NCBI GenBank assembly: GCA_030652115.1
Contig: JAUSBK010000007.1
Location: forward strand, 62,001-126,000
Origin: Coriobacteriia bacterium
GTDB lineage: Bacteria; Actinomycetota; Coriobacteriia; Anaerosomatales; Anaerosomataceae
DNA length: 64,000 nt
Direction of reading: 5' to 3'
Below the pieces are notes generated by a model, which saw only the letters and a program-made list of their open reading frames with translations, did no database searches and was not told the origin of the DNA. Below are positions 31,476 to 41,607 of the stretch, piece after piece. The position numbers and the translations under genes were made by a program. The first letter of the stretch is position 1. Each line of letters starts with the position of its first letter.

Positions 31476-31610
31476 CTCTTCCCTCCCCGCGATCAGATTC
31501 CAGATGGATTCTACCTGATACATCGGATGTACGGGTGTCGGACATGATGGTGATGCGGGGGGCGTTGCCACACGACTCCTTCGGCCGCTTCGGTCCTACC
31601 GTCGCATGCG

Positions 31611-31616
31611 TATAAT
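31611..31616 (+). promoter_or_regulatory. -10 box of a leaderless pdtaS promoter
   Basis: A consensus TATAAT ends 7 bp before the ATG at 31624, so the transcript should start at the start codon. No ribosome site is present. A TTCGGT at 31589-31594 is a possible weak -35 at 16 bp spacing. Confidence 0.55.
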
Positions 31617-31623
31617 CCTCAGC

Positions 31624-33048
31624 ATGAGCACACCATCATCCGCGCGCGCCCCGCTGTCAGGGCTCGCTCCCGCCGAACGCGACCACATCACCAACGTGGC
31701 CGCGAACCTGCAATTGGCCGCCGACCTGGGTTACGGGGATGTGGCGCTGCTCGTTGCTGCCGAGGGCGGCGACCTGCGCGTGTTTGCGGACGCCCGTCCG
31801 ATGACCGCGGCGGCGGCGGTGCCGGTGACGCGGGTGGGCGAGTCGGTGGTGCGCACCGACGAGCCGGAGGCGTACGACGCGCTCGAAGGCGGCGTCGTCG
31901 CATGCGGCACGCATCGCCGCATCCGCCGCGGTATCGCGTTCACCTCTACGGGCTATCCCATCGGACCGGCGGAGCATCCGTACGCGGTGGTGGTCCGCCA
32001 TGTCGGCCAGAGCGTGGCCGAGGCTCCCGGCAAGATGGAAGTCGCGTTCATGCGCCTTGCGGCCCTGGTGCTCGAACGGCTGCAGACTGCGCCGATCACG
32101 GACCTCGACGCCGACGCCCCATACTCCACCACCCGGCTTGCCGGCGACGGCGTGATCGAGGTCGCGGAGAGTGGCGCCGTCACCTACGCCAGCCCGAACG
32201 CCGTCAACATCATGCGGCTCGCCGGCACCGAGGGCACGCTCGTGGGAAGCCCCGCTTCGGCGCTTCCGGGCGGCGCCTCGACCGTGACGCCGGTGCTCGG
32301 TACTGGCGCCGCGCGCGAGATGACGCTCGAGGTCCGCGGCCGCTCGCTCCGCTACCGGACGATCGCGCTCGCCGAGGGTGCGCTGGTGCTCGTGGAAGAC
32401 GTCACCGACGCGCGGCGGCGCGAGCAGGAGTTGCGCGTCAAGGAAGCCACTATCCGCGAGGTGCACCATCGCGTGAAGAACAACCTGCAGACGATCGCCA
32501 GTCTGCTGCGCATCCAGGCGCGTCGGTCCTCCACCACCGAGGCTGCGCTCGCGCTCGGCGAGGCGGTGGAGCGGGTGTCGTCGATGGCAGTCGTCCATGA
32601 GATGCTCGCCGAGTCCGCCGAGGAGTCGGTGGACCTGTCGGCGGTGGTGCGGACCGTCGTCGAGATGGTCGGGCGTAGCCTCATCGGTCCGGGAGCGGAC
32701 ATCAGGCTCGTGGTCGAGGGGGAGACGGGCCTCGTGCCCGCGCCGGTCGCCACCTCGCTCGCGCTTGTCGCCGTCGAGCTCGTGCACAACGCGATCCAGC
32801 ACGGCATCGGCGCGTCGGGATCGGGCTCGGTCACCGTGACCATGCGGGGCACCGCCTCGGAGGTCTCGCTCACCGTCAAGGACACCGGGCGCGGCCTGCC
32901 GGACGGCTTCTCGGTCAGCGCATCGGCCAACCTCGGCCTGGCGATCGTGCGCACCATCGTGGAGGACGACCTGCGCGGTACACTCTCATTCGGCACGGCG
33001 GCCGGCACGCTCGTGTCGGTTCGCGTGCCCGTCCCCGAACGGACGTAG
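31624..33048 (+). CDS. pdtaS: PdtaS-like sensor histidine kinase (GAF-PAS-HisKA_2)
   Basis: The 474-residue soluble kinase resembles PdtaS of mycobacteria. An N-terminal GAF-like region (to about residue 165) and a PAS-like region (about 175-265) lead to the HWE/HisKA_2 dimerisation motif REVHHRVKNNLQTIASLLRIQARR, with the phospho-His at 281 or 282, and an ATPase domain (VELVHNAIQHG, DTGRGLP, NLGLAIVRTIV). No membrane segment is seen, so it senses a cytoplasmic signal. The ANTAR regulator gene follows without a gap. An alternative start at 31606 would place the -10 box inside the gene. Confidence 0.85.
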   Translation: MSTPSSARAPLSGLAPAERDHITNVAANLQLAADLGYGDVALLVAAEGGDLRVFADARPMTAAAAVPVTRVGESVVRTDEPEAYDALEGGVVACGTHRRIRRGIAFTSTGYPIGPAEHPYAVVVRHVGQSVAEAPGKMEVAFMRLAALVLERLQTAPITDLDADAPYSTTRLAGDGVIEVAESGAVTYASPNAVNIMRLAGTEGTLVGSPASALPGGASTVTPVLGTGAAREMTLEVRGRSLRYRTIALAEGALVLVEDVTDARRREQELRVKEATIREVHHRVKNNLQTIASLLRIQARRSSTTEAALALGEAVERVSSMAVVHEMLAESAEESVDLSAVVRTVVEMVGRSLIGPGADIRLVVEGETGLVPAPVATSLALVAVELVHNAIQHGIGASGSGSVTVTMRGTASEVSLTVKDTGRGLPDGFSVSASANLGLAIVRTIVEDDLRGTLSFGTAAGTLVSVRVPVPERT

Positions 33049-33630
33049 GTGATCCTGCCCGTGCGCGTGCTCATCGCAGAAGACGAAGCCATCATCCGCA
33101 TGGACCTGCGCGAGATGCTTGCCGAAGAGGGCCACGAGGTCGTCGGCGAGGCGCGTAACGGCGCCGAGGCGATCGCGCTCGCCCGCGAGCTGCGCCCCGA
33201 CATCATCTTCATGGACGTGAAGATGCCCGGCACCGGTGGCCTGGAGGCCGCGCGCGCCATCGGCGAGGAGCGCATCGCGCCCGTGGTGATGGTGACCGCG
33301 TTCTCGCAGCAGTCGTACGTGGACGAGGCCACTGCCGCGGGCGCCATGGCCTACCTCATCAAGCCGTTCTCCAAGCGCGACATCGTGCCGGCGATGACCG
33401 TTGCGGTCTCGCGTTTCTCCGAGGCGCGTGCGCTCGAGGCCGAGGTGGACGACCTCACCGAGCGACTCGAAACGCGCAAGGCGCTCGATCGAGCCAAGGG
33501 CGTGCTCATGACCAAGGGCATGACCGAGCCCGAGGCGTTCCGCCGGCTGCAGAAGCTTGCCATGGATCGCCGGATGTCGCTCAAAGACGTCGCCGAGGCC
33601 GTGGTACTCGCCGCCGACGCCGCGGGGTAA
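33049..33630 (+). CDS. pdtaR: ANTAR-domain response regulator (PdtaR-like)
   Basis: The 193-residue protein has a receiver domain with phospho-acceptor Asp56 (IIFMDVKMPG) and Lys in YLIKPFSK, a coiled linker, and an ANTAR RNA-binding domain (LETRKALDRAKGVLMTKGM then EAFRRLQKLAMDRRMSLKDVAEAV). ANTAR proteins bind paired hexaloop hairpins and prevent transcription termination. The GTG start immediately follows the kinase stop. A leader with exactly this kind of RNA structure begins 80 bp downstream of the gene, before the glutamate synthase operon, and is its most likely target. Confidence 0.9.
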   Translation: MILPVRVLIAEDEAIIRMDLREMLAEEGHEVVGEARNGAEAIALARELRPDIIFMDVKMPGTGGLEAARAIGEERIAPVVMVTAFSQQSYVDEATAAGAMAYLIKPFSKRDIVPAMTVAVSRFSEARALEAEVDDLTERLETRKALDRAKGVLMTKGMTEPEAFRRLQKLAMDRRMSLKDVAEAVVLAADAAG

Positions 33631-33676
33631 GGCTCGCACGGTTTGCCCCGGGTTTCCTCCGCGTTTCGGCCACATC

Positions 33677-33705
33677 TTCACACTTGGCCCGGCGCCTGCT
33701 AGAAT
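33677..33705 (+). promoter_or_regulatory. Promoter of the Hdr-like/glutamate synthase operon
   Basis: TTCACA (33677-33682) and TAGAAT (33700-33705) are spaced by 17 bp. The start point would be near 33712, directly before the first hexaloop hairpin, so the leader RNA begins with the antiterminator element. Confidence 0.65.
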
Positions 33706-33713
33706 CCCTTGCA

Positions 33714-33760
33714 CGGCTCAACGGCGAGCCGAATCCAAGATGCGAGCAATGACGCTCACA
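33714..33760 (+). promoter_or_regulatory. ANTAR dual-hexaloop antiterminator
   Basis: Hairpin 1 is CGGCTC (33714-33719), loop AACGGC, GAGCCG (33726-33731), a perfect 6-bp stem. Hairpin 2 is GAGC (33744-33747), loop AATGAC, GCTC (33754-33757), extended by two pairs after a C-A mismatch. Both loops have six bases with A at position 1 and G at position 4, the defining features of ANTAR targets. Nine bases separate them. The 3' side of hairpin 2 is also the 5' side of the terminator, so the two are mutually exclusive. Confidence 0.8.
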
Positions 33761-33791
33761 GCGGACCCAACGTGGTCCGGGTGGGCGTTTT
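33753..33791 (+). terminator. Conditional terminator before the Hdr-like/glutamate synthase operon
   Basis: CGCTCACAGCGGACC (33753-33767) pairs with GGTCCGGGTGGGCG (33774-33787), with one G-U pair and a small internal loop, around a 6-base loop CAACGT. TTTTCGTTT follows. It lies 30 bp before the first gene and shares bases with the second hexaloop hairpin. Confidence 0.8.
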
Positions 33792-33820
33792 CGTTTGTCT
33801 GGCAATGAGAGGCGGCACGC

Positions 33821-35170
33821 ATGAGGGAGTTCGCGGTCTTCTGGGGATGCACGATCCCTGCGAGGTTCCCCTTCATCGAGAAGTCGACGCGCGTGGTCTT
33901 CGAGGACCTCGGCGCGACCGTGCACGAGCTTGCGGGTCACACCTGCTGCCCCGAGGGCACGCTCGTGAAGGCGAACGACGAGGACGCGTTCTACACGGCC
34001 GCCGCGCGCAACCTCGCAATCGTCGAGAAGGCGGAGCTCGGCGTGGTCACGCCGTGCAACGGCTGCTACTCGACTTTCAAGGAGGCCGCAAGCCACCTGC
34101 GCAGCGACTGGCGCAGTCGCGAGCGCATCAACGAGCGTCTCGCCACAGAGGAGCTGCACTACACGGGCGATCTGGACATCGTGCACTTTGCCGAGTGGCT
34201 GGCCGACACCGTCGGCGTCGGGTCGCTCGGCGCGAAGGTCACCAAGCCGCTCTGGGGCATGAAGGTCGCCGTGCACTACGGCTGCCACCTGCTTCGCCCA
34301 CAGCCCGCGGTGCGATGGGACGACCCGCTCAACCCGACCAAGGTCGAGGAGCTCGTCGCGGCCCTCGGCGCGAAGGTCGTGGACTACACCACCAAGATGC
34401 AGTGCTGCGGCGGTGCGCTCGACCGCGTGGGAGAGCGTGAGGGCTCGCTCGCCTTCGCGCGGCGCAAGCTCTACGACGTGCAGAACGAAGGCGCCGACGC
34501 GCTCGTGGTGGTCTGCCCGAGCTGCTTCCAGCAGTTCGACCTCAACCAGGCGGCGCTCCAGCGCGCGAACGAAGACGTGCACGTGCCGGTCTTCTACCTC
34601 TCGGAACTCATCGCGCTCGCGATGGGGCACGCGCCCGCCGAACTCGGCCTCGACATGCATCGCGTGCCGGTGGACAGCTTCCTCGCCAAGTGGGAGGCGC
34701 GCACTGGCGACAAGCAGCGGCTTGCCGAGCACTTCGACGTGGCGCTGCTCGCCAAGTGCGACTCGTGCCAGGCGTGCAAGGACGACTGCCCGGTCTGCAA
34801 GGTGGACCCCACCTTCCAGCCGAACGACATCATCGCCGCGCTGCTCGCCGGCAACCTCGATGCGATCGTCGCCGACGGGCAGCTATGGAAGTGCCTCGAG
34901 TGCTACACGTGCCAGGAGATGTGCCACAGCCGCATCGGCATGGCCGACGTCTTCCGCCAGCTCAAGGAGCTCTCGCTCGAGGGCGGGCACGGCCCGGAGT
35001 CGGTGGCTGCGGCCTACGCTGAGTTCCTCAAGACGGGCGCGCTCGGCAAGCCGCGCGAGGGCGCGCGCAAGAAGCTCGGACTCGAGCCCCTGCCCGAAGG
35101 CGGCGGCGATGCGATCGCCCGCCTGCTGGGTGCGAACGAACCGTCCCCGCTTTCCGCGGAGAAGGAGTGA
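33821..35170 (+). CDS. HdrB-HdrC-like fusion iron-sulfur protein
   Basis: The 449-residue protein first has two complete CCG domains of the HdrB type: Cys10, Cys42-Cys43, Cys79-x2-Cys82; and Cys155, Cys195-Cys196, Cys232-x2-Cys235. Such motifs hold the non-cubane cluster pair of heterodisulfide reductase. The C-terminal part carries two CxxCxxCxxxC motifs (Cys313-323 and Cys358-368), like HdrC, which bind [4Fe-4S] clusters. It is the first gene behind the ANTAR leader and is followed by three glutamate synthase genes, with no GltD gene present. A role as electron carrier or redox input for glutamate synthase is inferred. No membrane anchor is seen. Confidence 0.85.
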   Translation: MREFAVFWGCTIPARFPFIEKSTRVVFEDLGATVHELAGHTCCPEGTLVKANDEDAFYTAAARNLAIVEKAELGVVTPCNGCYSTFKEAASHLRSDWRSRERINERLATEELHYTGDLDIVHFAEWLADTVGVGSLGAKVTKPLWGMKVAVHYGCHLLRPQPAVRWDDPLNPTKVEELVAALGAKVVDYTTKMQCCGGALDRVGEREGSLAFARRKLYDVQNEGADALVVVCPSCFQQFDLNQAALQRANEDVHVPVFYLSELIALAMGHAPAELGLDMHRVPVDSFLAKWEARTGDKQRLAEHFDVALLAKCDSCQACKDDCPVCKVDPTFQPNDIIAALLAGNLDAIVADGQLWKCLECYTCQEMCHSRIGMADVFRQLKELSLEGGHGPESVAAAYAEFLKTGALGKPREGARKKLGLEPLPEGGGDAIARLLGANEPSPLSAEKE

Positions 35171-35175
35171 ATGAC

Positions 35176-36405
35176 ATGCCTTACGACCTGAGCCGATACG
35201 ACAACTTCGCACCCGCGAACTACCGCGAGGAGTCGCCGTTCAAGATCCACGGCGGCTGCGGCCTCATGGGCATCTGCGACGAGAGCGGCGCTCTCATGAG
35301 CGGCGAGGAGCCGATCCTCGCGATGGCCGTGCAGCGCGATCGCGGCAACGGCCTCGGCGGCGGATTTGCCGGCTACGGCATCTACCCCGAGTTCCCGGAC
35401 CACTTCTGCTTCCACATGATGTATCACGACCTCAAGGCCAAAGAGGAGGCCGAGGCGATCCTCGACCAGCACTTCCTGATCGAGGTCGCCGAGCCGATGC
35501 CCACGCGTCCCGTGAAGGGCATCACCGACGCGCCGCTGCTGTGGCGCTACTTCATGACCCCGCACGCGCACCTGCTCGAGGAGCGCGAGGTCACCGCCGA
35601 GGACTACGTCGTGAGCGTGGTCATGCTCGTGAACGCTCGCGTGGACGGTGCGTTCGTCGCCTCCTCGGGCAAGAACATGGGCGCGTTCAAGGGCGTGGGC
35701 TACCCCGAGGAGATCGGCCACTACTTCCGCCTCGAGGAGTACGCCGGCCACACGTGGGTCGGCCACAACCGCTTCCCCACGAACACACCGGGCTGGTGGG
35801 GCGGGGCGCACCCGTTCACGCTGCTCGACTGGTCGATCGTGCACAACGGCGAGATCTCGAGCTACGGCATCAACAGCCGCTACCTCGAGCAGTTCGGCTA
35901 CACGTGCTCGCTCGGCACCGACACCGAGGTGGCGGCATACCTGTTCGACCTGCTGCTGCGTCGGCACAAGCTCCCGCTTGAGCTCGCGTGCAAGGCGCTT
36001 GCGCCCGCGCTCTGGACTGAGATCGATCGCATGGATCCCGAGCAGGCCGCGCTGATGAGTTCGCTCCGCGCGGTGTACGGCCCGGGCATGCTGAACGGCC
36101 CCTTCGCCATCGTGCTCGGCTTCAATGGCGGCATGGTCGCGCTGAACGACCGCATCAAGCTCCGCCCGCTCGTGGCGGCACGCAGCGGCAGCAAGCTCAT
36201 GGTCGCCTCGGAAGAGAGCGCGATCCGCACGATCATGCCGGAGCCCGACGACGTCTGGATGCCGAAGGCCGGTGAGCCGGTCATCGCGCGCGTGAAGGGC
36301 ATGGACCTGCCGTTCCACAGCCAGCTTCACGCCAGCCCCGCCGAGATATCGTGCGCCGTGACCGCGGTGGAGACCGCCTGTGAGATAGAGGAGGTGGCGG
36401 TCTAG
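35176..36405 (+). CDS. Glutamate synthase, glutamine amidotransferase subunit
   Basis: The 409-residue protein is a class II (Ntn) amidotransferase as found in split archaeal-type glutamate synthases. The nucleophile is expected at the Cys of KIHGGCGLMGI, exposed by removal of a propeptide of about 28 residues. GHNRFPTNTPGWWGGAHPF, IVHNGEISSY and LGTDTEVAAYL are typical active-site elements. It releases ammonia from glutamine for the synthase subunit. ATG 35176 is chosen because AAGGAG ends 8 bp upstream; a GTG at 35167 overlaps that site and the previous gene's stop. Confidence 0.9.
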   Translation: MPYDLSRYDNFAPANYREESPFKIHGGCGLMGICDESGALMSGEEPILAMAVQRDRGNGLGGGFAGYGIYPEFPDHFCFHMMYHDLKAKEEAEAILDQHFLIEVAEPMPTRPVKGITDAPLLWRYFMTPHAHLLEEREVTAEDYVVSVVMLVNARVDGAFVASSGKNMGAFKGVGYPEEIGHYFRLEEYAGHTWVGHNRFPTNTPGWWGGAHPFTLLDWSIVHNGEISSYGINSRYLEQFGYTCSLGTDTEVAAYLFDLLLRRHKLPLELACKALAPALWTEIDRMDPEQAALMSSLRAVYGPGMLNGPFAIVLGFNGGMVALNDRIKLRPLVAARSGSKLMVASEESAIRTIMPEPDDVWMPKAGEPVIARVKGMDLPFHSQLHASPAEISCAVTAVETACEIEEVAV

Positions 36406-36406
36406 C

Positions 36407-37918
<1,512 letters not shown>

Positions 37919-37931
37919 GGGAGAGCCGAAG

Positions 37932-38768
37932 ATGATGATGAAGCCAGCAAGCGTTGCACCGCCCGCCGGCGTGATCGAGGGCTACCGCTACGTGGCGCCG
38001 TCCATCGAGCGCAACGGCGACGCGGTGACGATCGACGCCACGGGCGTCTACTACCAGCAGCTCAACGACGCCGTCCGCGATCAGATCGCGGCAGGCGCGA
38101 AGACGATCACGCTCTCCGGCGTGAACGGCCAGCGCTACATCGGCTGCGGCCTGCGCGTCTCCGGCGTGAAGGTCGAGGTGCAGGGGTGCGCCGGAAACGA
38201 TATGGCCATGTTCGGCGACGGCACCGAGATCGAGGTCTTCGGCAATGCGCAAGACGGCGTGGGCAACACCATGAGCAACGGCCGCGTCGTGGTGCATGGC
38301 GACGCCGGCGACGTGCTCGGCTACGGCATGCGTGGCGGTCGCGTCTACATCAAAGGCGACGTGGGCTACCGCGTGGGCATCCACATGAAGGCATACGAGA
38401 AGCTCGTGCCGGTGCTCGTCTGCGGCGGCAAGGCGCGGGACTTCTTCGGCGAGTACATGGCCGGCGGCATGCTCGTGCTACTCGGCATGAACACGCGCGA
38501 TGAGGCCCAGCCGATCGCCGGATCGTTCCTCGGCGCGGGCATGCACGGAGGTGTCATCTACGTACGCGGCACCGTGGAGCCGTGGCAGTGTGGCGCCGAG
38601 GTGGGAATCACCGAGGCCTCGGAGGAGGATCTGGCCGAGCTCAGGCCCGTCATCGAGGACTACGCGACGGCGATGGGGATGGACGCCGCCGAGATTCTGG
38701 CGCGTCCGTTCACGCGCATCGCGCCGATGAGCCACCGGCCGTACGCGAAGCTCTACGCCTCGATGTAG
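37932..38768 (+). CDS. Glutamate synthase GXGXG-domain subunit
   Basis: The 278-residue protein consists of the right-handed beta helix that forms the C-terminal domain of large glutamate synthases: repeated GxxGxxG turns in GCGLRVSGVKVEVQGCAGND, NAQDGVGNTMSNGRVVVHG, YGMRGGRVYIKGDVGYRVG and FLGAGMHGGVIYVRG. It is thought to be structural and to help shape the ammonia tunnel. The first of three adjacent ATG codons is used, 6 bp after GGGGAGAG. Its stop directly abuts the stop of the converging acetyltransferase gene. Confidence 0.9.
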   Translation: MMMKPASVAPPAGVIEGYRYVAPSIERNGDAVTIDATGVYYQQLNDAVRDQIAAGAKTITLSGVNGQRYIGCGLRVSGVKVEVQGCAGNDMAMFGDGTEIEVFGNAQDGVGNTMSNGRVVVHGDAGDVLGYGMRGGRVYIKGDVGYRVGIHMKAYEKLVPVLVCGGKARDFFGEYMAGGMLVLLGMNTRDEAQPIAGSFLGAGMHGGVIYVRGTVEPWQCGAEVGITEASEEDLAELRPVIEDYATAMGMDAAEILARPFTRIAPMSHRPYAKLYASM

Positions 38769-40908: not shown

Positions 40909-40935
40909 TCGGCGGACTCGAGAGGAGGTGTGGCC

Positions 40936-41607
40936 GTGCATGTGAAGCACGTGGTGGTCGTCGCAGACGACCTGTACACCAGGGCCTGGATCGAATCGGC
41001 GATCGGTGCGCTCGACGTGGCGATCGACTACTGCACGACCGCCGACTTCGCGAACCGTCTCGCGAGCGCCCCGGGCGATCTCATGGTCGTCGAGGCGGGC
41101 CACGCTCCGGATGAGGCTGTCGCTCTCGCCGAGACCGCTTCGGCCGCGGGGTCGGATGTCCGGCTCATGCTCGTCGTCGAGCACGATGCTTTCGAGCGGC
41201 TTCGGCTGCCCGTGCGGTGCCCGTCGGACTTCGTGGCGCGAGCGGCGTCGGCGCAGGAGCTCGGCGCGCGCGTTCGGATGCTTCTGTGGCCCGGGGAAGA
41301 GGTCGGCTCGGACGACATCATCCGCGTGGACGACCTCGTGCTCAACCTTGCCACCTACCAGGCGTATGTCGGACCGGTGCCGGTCGAGTTTACCTACCTC
41401 GAGTACGCGCTGTTCGCGTTCCTCATCACGCACCCGAACCGCGTCTACAGTCGCGAGGTGCTGCTCAGCCGCGTGTGGGGCACCGACTACTTCGGCGGAG
41501 CGCGCACGGTGGACGTTCACATCCGTCGCATACGGGCGAAGCTTGGACCGGAGGTGGCGCGCCGGCTCGAGACGGTGCGCAACGTCGGGTATCTCTGGCG
41601 TCGGTAG
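40936..41607 (+). CDS. Orphan OmpR-type regulator with degenerate receiver (GlnR-like)
   Basis: The 223-residue protein has an N-terminal receiver-like domain and a C-terminal winged helix (YLEYALFAFLITHPNRVYSREVLLSRVWG, TVDVHIRRIRAKL, ETVRNVGYLWRR). The expected phospho-Asp position is Glu53 (LMVVEAGHAP) and the conserved switch Lys is absent (SDFVARAAS), so it cannot be phosphorylated in the usual way. GlnR of streptomycetes is a comparable orphan that works without phosphorylation and activates glnA. No kinase gene is adjacent, and glnA is the next gene upstream. GTG 40936 is preferred, 7 bp after AGGAGG. Its identity as GlnR is an inference from fold and context. Confidence 0.7.
   Translation: MHVKHVVVVADDLYTRAWIESAIGALDVAIDYCTTADFANRLASAPGDLMVVEAGHAPDEAVALAETASAAGSDVRLMLVVEHDAFERLRLPVRCPSDFVARAASAQELGARVRMLLWPGEEVGSDDIIRVDDLVLNLATYQAYVGPVPVEFTYLEYALFAFLITHPNRVYSREVLLSRVWGTDYFGGARTVDVHIRRIRAKLGPEVARRLETVRNVGYLWRR

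Follow-up and report, generated by a model that had tools for sequence, protein, structure and literature searches.

The window considered here, a stretch of 64,000 nucleotides from a Coriobacteriia bacterium, carries a transcript leader at 33713-33791, situated between a kinase/regulator gene pair and an operon for an HdrB-like protein and a split glutamate synthase. The features of this locus are as follows.

31606 to 33048, plus strand: PdtaS-like cytosolic histidine kinase with GAF_PdtaS, HisKA_2 and HATPase_c domains (Pfam; PDB 2ykf)
33049 to 33630, plus strand: PdtaR-like response regulator with an ANTAR domain (Pfam Response_reg and ANTAR; PDB 1s8n and 6wsh)
33652 to 33667, plus strand: tandem GTTTC-n6-GTTTC (11-bp repeat), candidate site of a GlnR/OmpR-type activator (exact pair in relatives; protein presumed)
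33677 to 33705, plus strand: promoter, TTCACA, 17 nt, extended -10 TGC-TAGAAT (promoter scan; conserved in aligned leaders)
33714 to 33731, plus strand: P1 hairpin with hexaloop AACGGC at 33720-33725 (sequence reading, folding, alignment, covariation)
33741 to 33760, plus strand: P2 hairpin with hexaloop AATGAC at 33748-33753 and core stem GAGC/GCTC at 33744-33757 (sequence reading, folding, alignment, covariation)
33751 to 33791, plus strand: intrinsic terminator whose 5' arm overlaps P2, TTTT at its end (folding; the lower stem covaries)
33821 to 35170, plus strand: HdrB/HdrC-like CCG and 4Fe-4S protein, first gene of the operon (two Pfam CCG domains and Fer4; NCBIfam HdrB below cut-off)
35167 to 36405, plus strand: glutamine amidotransferase subunit of the split glutamate synthase (Pfam GATase_2)
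36407 to 37918, plus strand: glutamate synthase catalytic subunit (FMN/4Fe-4S) with an N-terminal ferredoxin domain (Pfam Glu_synthase, 1.7e-137)
37932 to 38768, plus strand: GXGXG subunit of the split glutamate synthase (Pfam GXGXG, 2.9e-31)

An initial annotation of this DNA had placed the leader ahead of a glutamate synthase operon, which stands, but the first gene, whose start codon lies about 30 nt past the terminator, encodes the HdrB/HdrC-like CCG/4Fe-4S protein, with the split synthase genes behind it. In a second departure from that annotation, a GNAT-like frame on the opposite strand lies between the synthase genes and the glutamine synthetase gene glnA (39477).

Sequence reading and folding bear out the two hairpins with 6-base loops, AACGGC and AATGAC, that had been described, each with A at position 1 (A1) and G at position 4 (G4). 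P1 (CGGCTC-AACGGC-GAGCCG) consists of six perfect pairs with a folding energy of -10.8 kcal/mol, and P2 (GAGC-AATGAC-GCTC, 33744-33757) of four pairs extended by two outer pairs past a C/A mismatch (33741-33760), with -6.0 kcal/mol. The 9-nt separation given for the hairpins is correct if the two outer pairs of P2 are counted; otherwise the linker is 12 nt. The terminator at 33751-33789, GACGCTCAC..CGGACC[CAACGT]GGTCCG.GTGGGCGTT followed by TT, folds with -24.7 kcal/mol, its T run occupying 33788-33791. As had been proposed, P2 overlaps its 5' arm: nucleotides 33751-33759, comprising the end of the loop and the 3' arm of P2, are common to both structures, so that P2 and the terminator are mutually exclusive. 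A consensus terminator scanner missed the terminator at 33751-33791, probably because of the short and interrupted T run. When the 64 kb were searched for the plain pattern of two A..G.. hexaloops with an overlapping terminator, a single match appeared, at 33713-33791, and the same pattern is absent from 40 dinucleotide shuffles. The leader thus shows the features by which Ramesh 2012 recognized ANTAR-target RNAs: two hairpins of at least 3 bp each with hexanucleotide loops, A1 and G4 in both loops, a P2 that overlaps and excludes an intrinsic terminator, and an ANTAR protein (exactly one) encoded in the same genome.

The hairpins lie directly downstream of a promoter, as the initial annotation also had it. 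Within 33500-34000, the scan yielded no promoter other than that at 33677-33705, where 0.0 would be expected, and the extended -10 element of this promoter stands at a near-fixed distance from P1 in all 56 aligned leaders. Since the promoter ends at 33705, transcription should start at the base of P1 (predicted near 33712), making P1 the predicted 5' end of the transcript. A sigma-54 promoter was also considered, because of a GGC..TGC spacing and an rpoN gene in the genome. This reading was rejected in favor of a sigma-70-type promoter, as the aligned promoters retain TGCTAnAnT, the TT at -35 and the 17-nt spacing, whereas only some two thirds of them have the -24 GG. The rpoN (sigma-54) gene itself lies outside the window (G000:C7:206179-206655). 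To our knowledge, rpoN is unusual for the actinobacterial phylum.

The adjacent upstream genes do encode, as proposed, an ANTAR regulator and its kinase, a conclusion confirmed by their Pfam domains. The kinase has as its best PDB relative 2ykf, the PdtaS of Mycobacterium tuberculosis (4e-19), and the regulator matches 1s8n (Rv1626, 1.7e-64) and 6wsh (EutV, 9e-40). The regulator, the only ANTAR protein found in a search of the genome, passes the Pfam cut-offs for PF03861 and PF00072 and carries the phosphoacceptor aspartate; Asp56 and K105 are invariant in 25 aligned regulators. At the 11 RNA-contact positions of EutV (taken from PMC8934654), six residues are identical (Arg142, Lys143, Lys149, Glu160, Met172, Arg175), two are conservatively replaced (Lys147 by Arg, Tyr164 by Phe) and three differ (Arg168 to Gln, Asn173 to Asp, Arg177 to Ser). 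The aromatic stacking on G4 is covered among the identical or conservatively replaced positions. These states are near-uniform across the 25 regulators, with most contact positions invariant, and Rv1626 shows largely the same pattern.

Further evidence comes from the distribution of the leader, for which the covariance search proposed in the initial annotation was carried out with a model built from P1 and P2. The window leader scores 63 bits; elsewhere in the genome no match exceeds about 21 bits. A wider regulon in the same genome was considered and rejected, as the next matches, at 15-21 bits, have no proper hexaloop pair and were taken as noise. Across the order, 57 genomes each have one strong match, ahead of the operon wherever its first gene could be located, also in genomes whose regulator gene has moved some kilobases off or sits on a different contig, one ANTAR gene being paired with one leader per genome. 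In a sample of 248 genomes of the class, the element is present in 59, of which 58 have an ANTAR gene as well, and among the 176 without an ANTAR gene the element occurs in one, a 64% complete assembly; because of the common ancestry of these genomes, the counts do not represent independent events. In two genomes of another order, the leader precedes the same operon and the ANTAR genes are on different contigs, indicating that the link between ANTAR protein and leader is not mere gene neighborhood. The model matched only close relatives among 296 genomes sampled from the rest of the phylum, and found no leader in the flanks of Streptomyces relatives of the regulator. In genomes of family f19 of the class, where the glutamate synthase is 58-61% identical, no dual A..G.. 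hexaloop lies upstream, whether or not an ANTAR gene is present; four of these genomes have an ANTAR gene and the more distant glutamate synthase, and the upstream region read contains no leader of this kind.

Conservation of the hairpins in orthologous leaders, on which the initial annotation had staked its reading, was assessed in 69 genomes of the order, 65 of which have orthologues of the first gene at a loose cut-off, mostly close full-length matches; where a relative is named, it is one of the Coriobacteriia or an unclassified actinobacterial metagenome assembly. The reading survived this comparison. Both hairpins are kept in 56 of the 57 leaders long enough to read, from some 15 families, and in these 56 G4 and the C-G closing pair are invariant in both loops. 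A occupies position 1 in 46 (P1) and 53 (P2) of the 56, the rest having G. The fixed features of the loops are therefore G4 and the closing pair, while position 1 may be G, in agreement with a structure in which A1 has no specific protein contact (PMC8934654), although an A1-to-U change in the loop reduced induction in Enterococcus faecalis (PMC3369931). Loops with G1 (13 of 112) never occur twice in one leader and mostly have C or U opposite, at position 6. The stem of P1 shows double-sided changes in five of its six pairs and is 97.5% paired. Likewise, the lower stem of the terminator, compared in 55 distinct relatives, is 99% paired and shows compensatory changes, among them a G-C/A-U exchange at one pair in 24 of 55 rows. 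The structure of the whole leader outscores all slid versions, and sliding controls abolish the pairing signals. The overlap of the terminator with P2 is conserved in essentially all leaders; the pair just beyond the P2 core is broken in 17 of 54 rows, as expected if terminator pairing constrains that base more. Linkers measure 10-20 nt in the relatives, against 12 nt in the window (9 with the outer P2 pairs) and 5-12 nt in the eut genes. One genome (G053, locus L188) has lost P1 and retains the promoter, P2 and the terminator, representing a natural single-hexaloop leader. In four others (G046, G048, G057, G061), the regulator is present and the operon was not found, for which gaps in the assemblies or a different target would each be an explanation.

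The initial description of the RNA is thus right, and its interpretation as an ANTAR dual-hexaloop antiterminator is very probably right as well, being supported by the conservation and covariation of the leader, the single ANTAR regulator and its EutV-like contact residues. In the best-studied precedent, phosphorylated dimeric EutV makes contact with G4 of each hexaloop and keeps the terminator from forming (PMC3369931, PMC8934654). By analogy with work on EutV, NasR and AmiR, from which regulator binding, phosphorylation dependence and antitermination are carried over, RNA polymerase would start at the base of P1 and, with active regulator absent, the terminator at 33751-33791 would fold and the operon would go unread. 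Phosphorylation by the PdtaS-like kinase (31606-33048) would lead the ANTAR regulator (33049-33630) to dimerize, and the dimer would touch the hexaloops of P1 and then P2 via their G4 bases, keeping P2 folded and the terminator blocked. The neighboring, single ANTAR regulator thus probably uses the leader to decide whether the operon is read. Points that speak against an ANTAR reading are the replacement of EutV Arg168, Asn173 and Arg177, the G1 loops, the 10-20 nt linkers, the four genomes that have the regulator but in which the operon was not found, and the leader of G053 that lacks P1.

Other explanations account less well for these observations. The position of the structure, about 80-160 nt past the stop codon of the regulator, would suit a terminator of the kinase-regulator operon in which P1 and P2 are chance hairpins, but this is extremely improbable given that a conserved promoter separates the regulator gene from P1, that the leader is retained before the operon where the regulator gene is distant or on another contig, and that the invariant hexaloop residues are unneeded for termination. 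An attenuator read by a factor other than an ANTAR protein, such as a riboswitch ligand, uncharged tRNA or a leader peptide, is very unlikely. Such attenuators are common before nitrogen and amino-acid genes, and family f19 has a different long structured leader before glutamate synthase; yet the loop pattern conserved here matches the ANTAR signature of the literature (PMC3369931) and goes along with the presence of an ANTAR gene, and an Rfam scan of the leader returned no family at gathering level, the sole weak match, narK RNA, having an ANTAR-like loop. Very improbable, too, is that the ANTAR protein binds the leader and acts mainly otherwise, by sequestration or an effect on translation, with termination near constitutive. 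ANTAR RNAs of mycobacteria frequently overlap the ribosome-binding site, and there are small RNAs that titrate ANTAR proteins (PMC8164766, PMC8131098), whereas here the start codon downstream of the terminator is uncovered by P1 and P2 and the terminator overlap is conserved. It is therefore very likely that the leader works as an ANTAR-type attenuator of transcription, through which the kinase/regulator relay antiterminates the glutamate synthase operon.

Comparison with known ANTAR systems places this switch among them while illustrating how its setting differs. The EutV/EutW system of E. faecalis (PMC3369931, PMC8934654) likewise combines a kinase and a REC-ANTAR regulator with leaders containing two A1/G4 hexaloops and a P2 overlapping a terminator. 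It controls several eut leaders where here there is one, its kinase has different input domains, three of its RNA-backbone contact residues differ from those of the window regulator, and the relatives of the window leader have a looser linker and some G1 loops. Putative ANTAR leaders before glutamate synthase and other nitrogen genes in Desulfotomaculum (PMC3369931) share both the RNA motif and the metabolic target, but these are Firmicutes with several leaders per genome, forming regulons, in contrast to the single leader beside its regulator in Coriobacteriia. The closest solved relatives of both proteins are those of the mycobacterial PdtaS/PdtaR system (PdtaR is Rv1626; PMC8131098), in which the kinase has the same domain order and the output is other than the operon seen here. 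The copper/NO-sensing cysteines C53 and C57 of PdtaS are replaced by non-cysteine residues (LRVFADARP) in the window kinase and the relatives read, so that a copper/NO input is unlikely to be common with mycobacterial PdtaS. In the one-component system NasR/nasF of Klebsiella, the logic of the leader is alike, while NasR has a nitrate-sensing domain and the window a two-protein relay.

The kind of RNA, the mechanism and the association with glutamate synthase were described in 2012 (PMC3369931), and a survey of ANTAR systems in actinobacteria reported few terminator-linked leaders and mentioned neither Coriobacteria nor glutamate synthase (PMC8164766). The locus is thus a clean, previously undescribed and unusually well supported example of a known mechanism, and not a system of a new kind. 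Its apparent novelty lies in the setting, a PdtaS/PdtaR-type circuit of one regulator and one target in Coriobacteriia, which would extend ANTAR control of glutamate synthase from Firmicutes to this class. Little is understood of what the PdtaS/PdtaR-type systems of actinobacteria sense and control. With a single kinase, a single ANTAR regulator and a single RNA target next to one another, sensor, binding and output can be tested here as a minimal set.

The leader promoter is probably also subject to a second control at the level of DNA, a suggestion based on the GTTTC repeats and a GlnR-like regulator. The exact 11-bp GTTTC pair lies upstream of the promoter in 35 of 56 orthologous leaders, and a gene for a GlnR-like regulator of OmpR type is found at 40930-41607, behind glnA.

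A quite different organization of the circuit is seen in a third lineage of the class, where a single protein combines sensor and ANTAR domain.

1674 to 2830 of locus L198 (genome G093): GAF_PdtaS-ANTAR fusion protein, kinase core missing (domain reading)

In this protein, GAF_PdtaS and the region behind it run straight into the ANTAR domain. The fusion gene ends about 45 nt before the P2 of a leader that has loops AACGAA and AATGGC and a terminator and precedes the same operon; the AACGAA loop, closed by a T-G pair, was spotted by eye, the covariance model having scored the AATGGC hairpin only. As judged from its domains, the locus is a natural one-component version of the circuit, resembling the sensor-ANTAR layout of NasR, and it connects the sensor part of the kinase to control of the leader without assumptions from the window. 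More tentatively, in a reading that is less likely than not, the combined observations may be cast as a nitrogen-assimilation logic gate present across a deep-branching order of actinobacteria, in which a GlnR-like activator at the GTTTC boxes would set initiation, and read-through from that promoter would be set by a PdtaS/PdtaR-type relay devoted to this one RNA target in the genome, the relay having collapsed into one sensor-ANTAR protein in one relative. If so, the GAF/PAS sensor would read a nitrogen or redox cue, hinting at an ancestral role of PdtaS/PdtaR.

Two other RNAs deserve mention. Rfam narK RNA (RF03032) resembles the leader in its P1 loop, AACGGC, and in spacing; membership was considered and rejected, as the window reaches 23.5 bits where the gathering score is 43.2, and hence is not a member by Rfam's rule. 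The narK consensus, set against window 33686-33759, contains the AACGGC loop, an unannotated CGAC-AAAGAC-GUCG hairpin that supplies a second hexaloop, and a sigma-54-like GGCaC..UUGC before them, so that from its consensus narK RNA looks like an unrecognized ANTAR target RNA. The f19 loci (L192, L200-L206) have long rod-like hairpin leaders ahead of the glutamate synthase operon, preceded by GAAACA repeats and without an Rfam match in the loci scanned (all except L204). With folding energies of about -89 to -155 kcal/mol over 270 nt, they are a candidate for an undescribed structured leader.
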